IMG/VR virus record: IMGVR_UViG_3300009370_000203 | Location: 1 to 20,913 of that record | Strand: one strand, 5' to 3' | DNA: 20,913 nt | DNA from: a virus | Part shown: positions 635 to 10,555 of the stretch, piece after piece | Layout: the number at the start of each line of letters is the position of its first letter | Position numbering within the stretch: the stretch's first letter is position 1 | Program-made: the position numbers and the translations under genes | Notes under the pieces: model-generated | The model's input: the letters and a program-made list of their open reading frames with translations, nothing else | Database searches by the model: none | What the model was told of the DNA's origin: nothing

Positions 635-663
635 TTGACAAATAGCCGATAATATATTATAAT
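635..663 (+). promoter_or_regulatory. Strong sigma70-type promoter, CGATA family
   Basis: TTGACA at 635-640 and TATAAT at 658-663 are separated by 17 bases. The spacer contains CCGATA and an AAAG lies six bases before the -35. Initiation would be near 670, so the first product is the long non-coding structured segment rather than a gene. Confidence 0.9.
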
Positions 664-669
664 GGGGGA

Positions 670-1110
670 AAGAAAACAAGCCGCTCCCTTTTGGTGAAGT
701 GCGAGAGATAAACGACCTCGACCGGAATCTCTCAAGCCTAACTGCCATCATTAGGGTATAAACGCGGCACAATACAATAAGCCCTGTGGGAGGTATAGTA
801 TCTCACTGGTGGCCTGTTAAACTGGTTTGATCACCAGTGAATCGACCGGCGTGAAGGTGGACGCACCCAATATCGTCGGCGTAGGTTTGATCACCGCGAC
901 AAGATTCGGACAGGATAAATCATCAGAAAAAGTCAGTGCAATTCTGACACAGGGTAGCACATTCTGATAACGGGGCGTCATAGCCGCAAGGCAAGACCAA
1001 TCACGCCCACAAACCCGTAAGGGTGGAGAGAAGTAGGGTTGGCACGTATTACCTAATCCAAAAGAATAGGGCGTTATGGGAATAGTCAGCGAAAAACCTC
1101 AGATTTATTA
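670..1110 (+). ncRNA. Large structured non-coding RNA, about 440 nt
   Basis: A strong promoter feeds about 440 bases with no credible reading frame but many perfect helices. These are GCCGC/GCGGC (680-684 with 764-768), GAGAGAT/ATCTCTC (703-709, 727-733), TCACTGGTG/CACCAGTGA (803-811, 832-840) and ATCAGAA/TTCTGAT (922-928, 962-968) enclosing GTCAG/CTGAC. GGGCGT/ACGCCC (973-978, 1003-1008) encloses a GCAA tetraloop hairpin (983-992). ACCC/GGGT carries a GTAA tetraloop (1013-1024). The 12-mer GGTTTGATCACC occurs twice (824, 884). GNRA loops and multi-helix layout resemble the ornate large phage RNAs (ROOL, GOLLD) in style, but I cannot match it to either. No terminator is seen, so it may also be the leader of the next gene. 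Confidence 0.7.
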
Positions 1111-4951: not shown

Positions 4952-5407
4952 ATGATTAAAAAAAAGCGCGGTCAAAAAATATGTGAGAAGTGTAATTGCG
5001 TGAATGGGGTGCGCGCATATGAGTGTAAGGAATGTGACCATCCTTTTAAGATGAAAAAATATCGCAAAGGGAATAAAAAGAAACAAGTAGAAGATCATAA
5101 GACTCTGAATAAGGGCGACCTGATCCGTGTGGTGGGCGGAAATGGGTGTCACTACATTGACAGCAAGGGCGACAAGCATTATTTTACAGACAGAGGTAAA
5201 TATATAGTTATGAGTACAGATAATCAAGGTATACTCACACGGGGTAAACATGGATACCAATATATTTATATGGGAAAATATAGACAGTCAAAATTACTTG
5301 ACACATGTTATGATGCCCCACATAAAATTATATTATTAAAAAATGCCGACCCTAAAGTTCGCCACTCTATTTATGGATCAGCTAAACGAGTAAAGTCGCG
5401 CGCATAA
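4952..5407 (+). CDS. Zinc-ribbon protein of a flanked cassette, 151 aa
   Basis: The start is the ATG nine bases after GGAG, not the TTG overlapping the ribosome site. Residues 11-31 form a zinc ribbon (CEKCNCVNGVRAYECKECDHPF, cysteines in two CxxC pairs), followed by a Lys-rich linker. A C-terminal region of about 100 residues has regularly spaced Gly and aromatic residues (KGDLIRVVGGNGCHY, GKYIVMS, GYQYIYMGKYR), suggestive of a small beta-barrel. A nucleic-acid-binding role is plausible but unproven. The gene is bracketed by direct repeats and sits in an AT-rich stretch, so it may be a recently gained or duplicated segment. Confidence 0.8.
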   Translation: MIKKKRGQKICEKCNCVNGVRAYECKECDHPFKMKKYRKGNKKKQVEDHKTLNKGDLIRVVGGNGCHYIDSKGDKHYFTDRGKYIVMSTDNQGILTRGKHGYQYIYMGKYRQSKLLDTCYDAPHKIILLKNADPKVRHSIYGSAKRVKSRA

Positions 5408-5433
5408 GCGTAGTCAGTCAATTTGGGGCATAT
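5392..5433 (+). repeat. 42-bp direct repeat, right copy
   Basis: AAAGTCGCGCGCATAAGCGT is followed by AGTCAGTCAATTTGGGGCAT. It overlaps the last codons of the zinc-ribbon gene and aligns with the left copy; the shared core is TAGTCAGTCA, then TTTGG and a final ATAT. Confidence 0.65.
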
Positions 5434-5685
5434 AGTTTAGATAGTACATATACTAATATCTAGGTATATACACATAAGTACATAGACTTAATACATATAT
5501 ACATACATACAAAGGAGTCAAATATACACTTATTCACACTTATAAACACTAAAATATACTCTAATTCACTCAAATACTAACTTTATATAGCTTATTGTTA
5601 GGACACTTGGTTCAAAATAAAAAAATTGAGTAAGAGAATGAGTAAGTAACTTGTTTTATCTATTGTATAAATAGTTATGTTATAG

Positions 5686-9843: not shown

Positions 9844-9994
9844 TACAGTAACTTTAAGTAAGCATGAGATGGTGGTGGACAGACATCACGAAATCAATAT
9901 CGTCACATGGAGAGGTCTGGTTATTCAGGTAGACGGTCTACCAGACGACTGGGAATACACCATACATGATGTGGAGGAAGATGCAGATGAGTAA
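9836..9994 (+). CDS. Small hypothetical protein, 52 aa
   Basis: ATGAGTAATACAG follows AAGGAGATTGAAG, a strong ribosome site that fixes the start. The protein begins MSNTVTLSKHEMVVD, then INIVTWRGLVIQVDGLPDDW, and ends EEDADE: a beta-rich middle and an acidic tail. No family is recognised. Both ends lie in ATGAGTAA overlaps. Confidence 0.75.
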   Translation: MSNTVTLSKHEMVVDRHHEINIVTWRGLVIQVDGLPDDWEYTIHDVEEDADE

Positions 9995-10148
9995 ACTATA
10001 TAAGAATTGGCCGTTTCATAATTTAATTGCACATCCTGTTAGCGAATTAGTCTATTGGGTCGTTAGACCTTTTGGTAGACCGATGGCTAAAACAGCAGGC
10101 GATTGGATTCACGATTCCACTTTACCAAAGGGTTTTGAAAATGAGTAA
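9987..10148 (+). CDS. Small phage protein with NLIAHP motif, 53 aa
   Basis: MSKLYKNWPFHNLIAHPVSE, a Trp/Tyr-rich middle (LVYWVVRPFG) and DWIHDSTLPKG. The pattern NWPxHNLIAHP ... xWIHDxTxP recurs in small phage proteins of unknown function. The conserved His and Asp residues suggest a structural or metal site, but nothing is established. Start and stop lie in 8-base ATGAGTAA overlaps with neighbours. Confidence 0.8.
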   Translation: MSKLYKNWPFHNLIAHPVSELVYWVVRPFGRPMAKTAGDWIHDSTLPKGFENE

Positions 10149-10329
10149 GACTATGTATCTACATTTAGAACCACATATGATTAGCTATGAGTCTGGTGCT
10201 ACCATTCAGGTTAAACTAGACGACGAAGGAATTGTTGTTGACGCTTGGAGTTTAGATGACTGCATTGCATCTACTTGGGAAACTTACAATGAACTTGGTG
10301 TTGAAGTAAAGGAGATTAAAAATGACTAA
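10141..10329 (+). CDS. Small hypothetical protein, 62 aa
   Basis: It starts at ATGAGTAAG in the overlap with the previous gene (ribosome site AAGGGTTTTGAAA). Content: MSKTMYLHLEPHMISYESGA, IQVKLDDEGIVVDAW, SLDDCIASTWETYNELGVEV. The mix of two strands and a helix suggests a compact alpha/beta domain. No family is recognised. The stop lies in the related overlap ATGACTAA. Confidence 0.75.
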   Translation: MSKTMYLHLEPHMISYESGATIQVKLDDEGIVVDAWSLDDCIASTWETYNELGVEVKEIKND

Positions 10330-10555
10330 GTATACTGTAGACTGTGGCTGGCAAATGTATGGTCATGTAGAGATTGAAGCAAAGGATGTGGATGAGGCTA
10401 TTCATATTGCAGAACAACAAACTAAACTGTCAGATGTTAATGCTGAATATGTTATGGGGTCTTTTGAAGTTGATTATGACACTACCCATGATAACGCATA
10501 CTATGGATGCTATCCTAATAACCTACCAAGACTAATGGAGGGTCTAGATGAGTAA
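10322..10555 (+). CDS. Small hypothetical protein, 77 aa
   Basis: ATGACTAAG follows AAAGGAGATTAAAA. The N-terminal half (TKYTVDCGWQMYGHVEIEAK, then DVDEAIHIAEQQT) has the strand-strand-helix pattern with an AxxxxEAI segment seen in many small phage and plasmid proteins (DpnD/PcfM-like fold), an assignment I hold only loosely. The C-terminal part is Tyr-rich (HDNAYYGCYPNN). It ends GLDE in an ATGAGTAA overlap. Confidence 0.75.
   Translation: MTKYTVDCGWQMYGHVEIEAKDVDEAIHIAEQQTKLSDVNAEYVMGSFEVDYDTTHDNAYYGCYPNNLPRLMEGLDE

Follow-up and report, generated by a model that had tools for sequence, protein, structure and literature searches.

The window, meaning the whole 20.9-kb virus record analyzed here, carries homologues of rIIA and rIIB. 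No open reading frame of 60 or more amino acids was found on either strand between positions 574 and 1114, which ruled out a protein-coding origin of the region from 670 to 1110. Seven perfect promoters lie in the first 5 kb of the window. One of them, at 635 to 663, precedes this region, and a second, at 1122, lies downstream of it. Transcription is expected to begin near 670, and the strong promoter at 635 probably drives synthesis of the RNA. The features of the region are as follows.

635-663, plus strand: promoter TTGACA-17-TATAAT, 12/12 match to the consensus with a 17-nt spacer
678-772, plus strand: module 1, a clade-specific element that precedes the tRNA-like structure (13-sequence alignment A3)
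781-956, plus strand: tRNA-like structure with a branched insert in the anticodon arm (helix positions match in L173, L178, and L298)
821-838, plus strand: hairpin 1, ACTGGTTTGATCACCAGT, with palindromic loop TGATCA; contains 12-mer copy 1 at 824-835
881-897, plus strand: hairpin 3, GTAGGTTTGATCACCGC, with palindromic loop TGATCA; contains 12-mer copy 2 at 884-895
957-1042, plus strand: 3' domain, defined by covarying alignments and matched by model R3 at 938-1050 (45.9 bits, with the window included in the training set of R3)
1046-1099, plus strand: 3' element, a hairpin plus CCTAATCCAAAAG..GTCAGCGAAAAA (blastn matches in L012, L013, L020, L035, L037, and L039)

A preliminary description had read 670 to 1110 as one large, ornate, gene-free RNA behind a near-consensus promoter, with two GNRA tetraloops and the repeated 12-mer GGTTTGATCACC. 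The region is indeed free of genes, structured, and noncoding, and its promoter is in fact perfect. The GCAA and GTAA tetraloops lie at 983 to 992 and 1014 to 1023, and the two copies of the 12-mer fall within hairpins 1 and 3. The region is not one uniform RNA, however, but a chain of four parts: module 1, the tRNA-like structure, the 3' domain, and the 3' element (from approximately 1046).

Folding of 665 to 1120 gave −136 kcal/mol (z = −2.19), and 1 of 100 shuffled sequences was as stable. This thermodynamic support is modest and only suggestive; we regard the comparison of homologous sequences as the decisive evidence for a structured RNA. A search of the window RNA against Rfam 15 gave no match at curated cutoffs, and with E values of up to 10 (positions 400 to 1190) only GOLLD appeared. 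Membership in GOLLD (RF02032) was rejected, because the match reached 16.9 bits (E = 0.04) against a gathering cutoff of 150 bits; this alignment mostly covers the 3' element and a promoter. Membership in ROOL was also rejected, with no Rfam match in the whole window at the gathering cutoff or in 400 to 1190 at E values of up to 10.

Module 1 is built from the stems GCCGC/GCGGC (680-684/764-768) and CCC/GGG and one variable stem, with a conserved loop AGTG..AAGCCTAAC and a conserved TATAAA; the window and L227 have an additional hairpin (703 to 733). In the 13 aligned sequences, 10 of 21 pairs showed double-sided changes. Model R2 detected module 1 in 13 of 30 records, 12 of which had supplied its training sequences. 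A known ribozyme was ruled out for module 1, which had no Rfam match at E values of up to 10. The 3' element recurs in relatives upstream of other promoters, where it lies at the ends of other noncoding stretches, and may be a common end-processing or termination signal. L092 and L149 have a tRNA-like element after module 1 and, after that element, a domain homologous to window positions 957 to 1045. Separately, L009 (4400 to 4730), L011, L020, and L058 carry module 1 followed by a different tRNA-like RNA with a long insert, a T-loop of TGCAAAT or TGCGACA, and no class 3' domain.

The tRNA-like structure and its 3' domain

In the window, an acceptor stem (781-787/949-955), a D-arm (789-804), and a T-arm (932-948) are followed by a discriminator base at 956. 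In place of a simple anticodon arm, an anticodon-arm stem (806-811/921-926) encloses an inner stem (813-817/910-914), a middle stem (839-843/903-907), and the hairpins with palindromic loops. The tRNA-like parts of the window, L173, L178, and L298 are 174 to 177 nt long. The acceptor stem, D-arm, anticodon-arm stem, inner stem, hairpin 1, middle stem, hairpin 3, and T-arm correspond in position among these four RNAs, in helices assigned by hand and checked afterwards by script. Most of the helix strands differ in sequence: the anticodon-arm stem reads CTGGTG/CATCAG, CTAGCAG/CTGCTAG, TCGCAGT/ACTGTGA, or TAATCT/AGATTA, and the middle stem reads GAATC/GATTC, GATCC/GGGTC, or GATAC/GTATC, while TGATC is retained in the loops. 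The secondary structure of the branched domain is supported by covariation.

The bases required for a normal tRNA elbow are the T-loop TTC and the D-loop GG. Both are lost in L173 and in the window, where the acceptor, D-arm, and T-arm helices of a functional tRNA are accompanied by a T-loop of TGCAATT and a D-loop of GTATAGTAT; most relatives have a TTCRA T-loop. Neither ARAGORN nor the Rfam tRNA model called positions 781 to 956. A tmRNA likewise shares with this RNA a tRNA-like domain in which a long insert replaces the anticodon arm. It differs in that the class RNA has an extra structured domain outside, 3' of the acceptor strand; moreover, ARAGORN and Rfam made no tmRNA call at the window, and no tag frame was recognized.

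The 3' domain of the window has a short closing helix, Px (TTCT/AGAA, 962-965/1029-1032). It further contains stem A (GGGCGT/ACGCCC, 973-978/1003-1008), the GCAA-loop hairpin GCC-GCAA-GGC, the GTAA-loop hairpin CCC-GTAA-GGG, and a strong pseudoknot, stem B (CCAATC/GGTTGG, 997-1002/1037-1042). In an alignment of seven sequences, 97.7% of the cells in stem A, the two hairpins, and the pseudoknot were paired, compared to 31 to 44% when the strands were slid; six pairs changed on both sides, with 14 double-sided cells compared to 4.1 in shuffled alignments. Stem B is CTAGCC/GGCTAG in L092, and by eye CTACCA/TGGTAG is consistent with it in L178, the tail of which is misaligned in alignment A2. The strand order of the pseudoknot resembles P3-P7-P8 of group I introns. 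A group I intron was nevertheless rejected: no Rfam match was found at E values of up to 10, P4-P6 was not seen, and the pseudoknot domain is not part of the tRNA-like structure.

Across the class, the discriminator is followed by G-C and then by Px, which encloses, in order, one hairpin, the core hairpin (invariant), another hairpin, and GGAGA. The core AACGNGGCGTCA..ACGCCNACAA lies inside the covarying 3' domain of the window, at 969 to 1012. The sequence of Px varies between subfamilies, and its complementarity is kept: the score was 6.9 for a sequence's own helix and 4.4 for crossed strands, the highest of 5,000 permutations reached 5.0, and 45 of 48 sequences scored at least 5. In 24 aligned 3' domains, 95.8% of cells were paired (37 to 47% when slid), with 93 double-sided cells compared to 26 ± 4 in shuffles. 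Outside its training set, R3 matched L252 (65.7 bits), L326 (36.4 bits), Tetrasphaera phage TJE1 (26.3 bits), and, weakly, Pseudomonas phage D6 (19.2 bits). Compensatory changes in the helices are abundant among homologues.

Distribution and identity of the class

A blastn search of the window against cultured phages returned no match. Use of the gene at 1507 to 2286 as a neighbor query yielded 35 viral relatives, which on comparison revealed that module 1 and the 3' element recur. L092, L149, L173, L178, L180, and L227 to L231 were obtained by scanning for patterns of module 1 and the 3' domain, and a scan of genome collections added L204. An initial homology pattern, AAACCCGTAAGGGTGG, was dropped, as its matches resemble chance; a weak match in Bifidobacterium phage BlindBasel1, lacking stem A, was also regarded as chance. 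The relaxed core pattern AACGNGGCGTCA-N(4-32)-ACGCCNACAA, with 20 fixed bases, matched at least 120 viral stretches, compared to a chance expectation of approximately 2 estimated from those fixed bases. Since members were gathered with this pattern, core variants are undersampled and the invariance of the core is partly by construction.

Most core matches stand immediately 3' of a T-arm and acceptor strand. A scoring script placed a tRNA-like structure immediately 5' of the core in 76% of the 97 distinct loci, compared to 0.7% of random positions, and the T-loop is TTCRA in 65 of the 74 loci above the script's threshold. In the window, too, a tRNA-like structure lies directly upstream of the 3' domain, and its anticodon arm bears hairpins with palindromic loops. 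The insert-bearing relatives L276, L285 to L287, L304, and L313 were matched independently by the Rfam tRNA model. ARAGORN left most of the relatives' tRNA-like parts uncalled, with ordinary tRNA genes often close by. Within the class RNAs of the relatives, Rfam matches were limited to the tRNA model on the tRNA-like parts of some; ordinary tRNA, tmRNA, and GOLLD genes lay elsewhere. In L286, a GOLLD-like RNA, a tmRNA, and the class RNA are three separate elements; positions 5201 to 5596 and 9958 to 10424 of that record hold a sub-threshold full-length GOLLD match (92 bits, E = 1e-22) and a phage tmRNA. The earlier proposal of an undescribed class that is neither ROOL nor GOLLD held up in every comparison made here. 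The tRNA-like core, the palindromic loop pair behind the 12-mer, and the wide occurrence of the class go beyond it. No description of the class was found in the open-access literature, which was the scope of the search.

These loci bear on whether the RNA is simply an intron-containing tRNA, in which removal of the insert would leave a functional phage tRNA, with the 3' domain serving as a trailer that aids processing. The acceptor, D-arm, and T-arm, the frequency of TTCRA T-loops, the proximity of many loci to tRNA genes, and the normal-sized tRNA at the corresponding position in L258 are in keeping with such a tRNA. Against it, insert length and the anticodon-arm stem vary with no constant splice site, Rfam matched no intron, the window and L173 lack the elbow bases, and a covarying domain follows the discriminator base; we consider this explanation improbable. 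Most class members also differ from a tRNA in having a large insert where the normal anticodon arm would be. The tRNA in L258 (1824 to 1934) has a UUA (stop-reading) anticodon, and the 3' domain core follows it directly.

No constant neighbor gene and no shared downstream gene was found among 94 loci, and no neighbor gene cluster covers more than 11 of them, which makes a trans-acting RNA likelier than a leader. A cis-acting leader or antitermination element for downstream genes would fit the position of the RNA upstream of same-strand genes and the related core of an E. coli lambdoid element, which is flanked there by antiterminator Q and holin. Given that the loci have no downstream gene in common and that a separate perfect promoter stands at 1122, a cis-acting role appears very unlikely. 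Among host genomes, R1 was found in 1 of 369 from the class of G022 (a Gammaproteobacteria MAG) and R3 in 2 of 398 from its phylum, one of them weak; the class is therefore essentially viral.

The lambdoid core, AAAACGAGGCGTCGGTACACGCCTATC, lies at approximately 1495 to 1528 of L369 (NZ_CP146561.1, 15213 to 18235) and by eye is nearly identical to the core of Pseudomonas phage D6. At least 115 of 5,426 complete E. coli genomes carry at least 80% of the L369 region. The copies that were opened are unannotated at the core, and no tRNA-like part was recognized in them.

Palindromic loops and a model for self-association

Each of the two copies of the 12-mer belongs to a hairpin whose loop is the palindrome UGAUCA. 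Among 58 nonredundant inserts in minimum-energy folds, 6-nt palindromes occurred in 46 of 132 predicted hairpin loops (35%), compared to 5.5% in dinucleotide shuffles (maximum, 10.3%). At least one palindromic loop was present in 33 RNAs (expected, 6.4; maximum, 13) and none in the other 25, whereas the 3' domain hairpins of the same RNAs had palindromes in 0 of 101. One palindrome gives way to another at homologous positions: ACTAGT, GCTAGC, and GATATC in one subfamily, and in another ACTAGT, TCTAGA, CCTAGG, and ACATGT and, separately, TGATCA, TAATTA, and TAGCTA. The number of palindromes observed at homologous positions was reached by none of 5,000 shuffles, in a count over all members in which related sequences enter repeatedly. 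Perfect DNA palindromes are argued against by the off-center position of 32 of the 46 relative to the hairpin.

If the two hairpins kissed within one molecule, the RNA would be a compact monomer. That arrangement draws on the window, L256, and L340, in which both loops have the same palindrome, and on L019 (L231), with the mutually complementary TGATTA and TAATCA; for the window, pairing within the molecule is equally possible. For the class it is weakened by the independent variation of both loops in one subfamily and by the different palindromes in 10 of the 13 RNAs that have two, and we judge it unlikely. Where the palindromes within one RNA differ, each loop matches its own copy in another molecule and not the second loop of its own RNA. 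Such differing, symmetrically changing palindromes point to contacts between molecules.

These results suggest an undescribed class of phage RNAs, probably trans-acting, built on a tRNA plan with a 3' domain and self-associating through palindromic kissing loops, to which we assign a probability of roughly 60%. The existence and secondary structure of the class are well supported; its expression, oligomerization, and biological role are proposed here from the features of the sequences. The RNA would fold on the tRNA plan of acceptor stem, D-arm, and T-arm, with a branched domain replacing the anticodon arm and displaying hairpins with self-complementary loops. A conserved 3' domain, closed by its own helix, would directly follow the discriminator base, so that the acceptor end is probably capped and not aminoacylated. 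Each palindromic loop would pair with the same loop of another copy, giving homodimers or larger assemblies. Judging from the palindrome statistics, this loop-loop self-association, comparable to the quaternary kissing-loop contacts in GOLLD, ROOL, and OLE, is the most likely use of the loops. As a role, we speculate that a scaffold-like RNA particle may engage tRNA-binding or ribosome-associated machinery through its tRNA-like part. More specifically, and at somewhat below even odds, the class may self-assemble from a tRNA-fold monomer with at least two different self-pairing kissing loops into dimers, rings, or closed cages, with the capped acceptor facing tRNA-binding machinery.

Several defense systems cut tRNA. 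In this phage setting, tRNA mimicry could make the tRNA-like part a decoy that lures host tRNA-cutting or -modifying enzymes (defense nucleases) or tRNA-processing enzymes. A decoy leaves the conserved 3' domain and the palindromic loops unexplained, and we give it little weight compared to the self-associating RNA.

Relation to known phage RNAs and wider occurrence

To our knowledge, few large structured RNAs of phages have been described, and none has a known function. GOLLD, ROOL, and OLE form RNA-only multimers through quaternary kissing loops, OLE as a homodimer using a kissing loop, and GOLLD and ROOL are phage RNAs of unknown function near tRNA islands (PMC12286853). The most abundant transcript of ICP1 is also noncoding and has no known role (PMC7567579). 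The class resembles GOLLD, an ornate phage RNA that often lies close to tRNA islands and has intermolecular kissing loops, and ROOL, a phage RNA near tRNA islands that forms a kissing-loop multimer (PMC12286853). It is distinct from these RNAs in its sequence and size, in its tRNA plan, and in its 3' domain. GOLLD often exceeds 800 nt and has another architecture, ROOL has no Rfam match in the window or its relatives, and OLE has no Rfam match and is not tRNA-like. tRNAs are sometimes embedded in GOLLD.

The analysis adds an RNA class found in many viral contigs, and the palindromic loops are a concrete, mutable prediction on RNA-only self-assembly. The occurrence of giant phage RNAs in tRNA islands is so far unexplained, and the tRNA-like body is relevant to this question. 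Traces in the cultured phages TJE1 and D6 and the related core carried by lambdoid prophages of E. coli make the class testable in laboratory strains. Current annotation overlooks it or labels it a nameless tRNA, as with the D6 RNA, which is annotated as "tRNA-OTHER."

The window has two further features of note. Positions 411 to 527 are another noncoding, structured-looking stretch (GCAGCCCAGTTAAAGCC...GGCTTCCC), and stretches resembling it are found in L005, L012, L016, L024, and L092. A repeated element, GGGGCTGCCCCGC..AAGGGTTTACGTC, lies at 539 to 600 and again at 2822 to 2880, immediately 5' of perfect promoters, and is common in relatives in either orientation.
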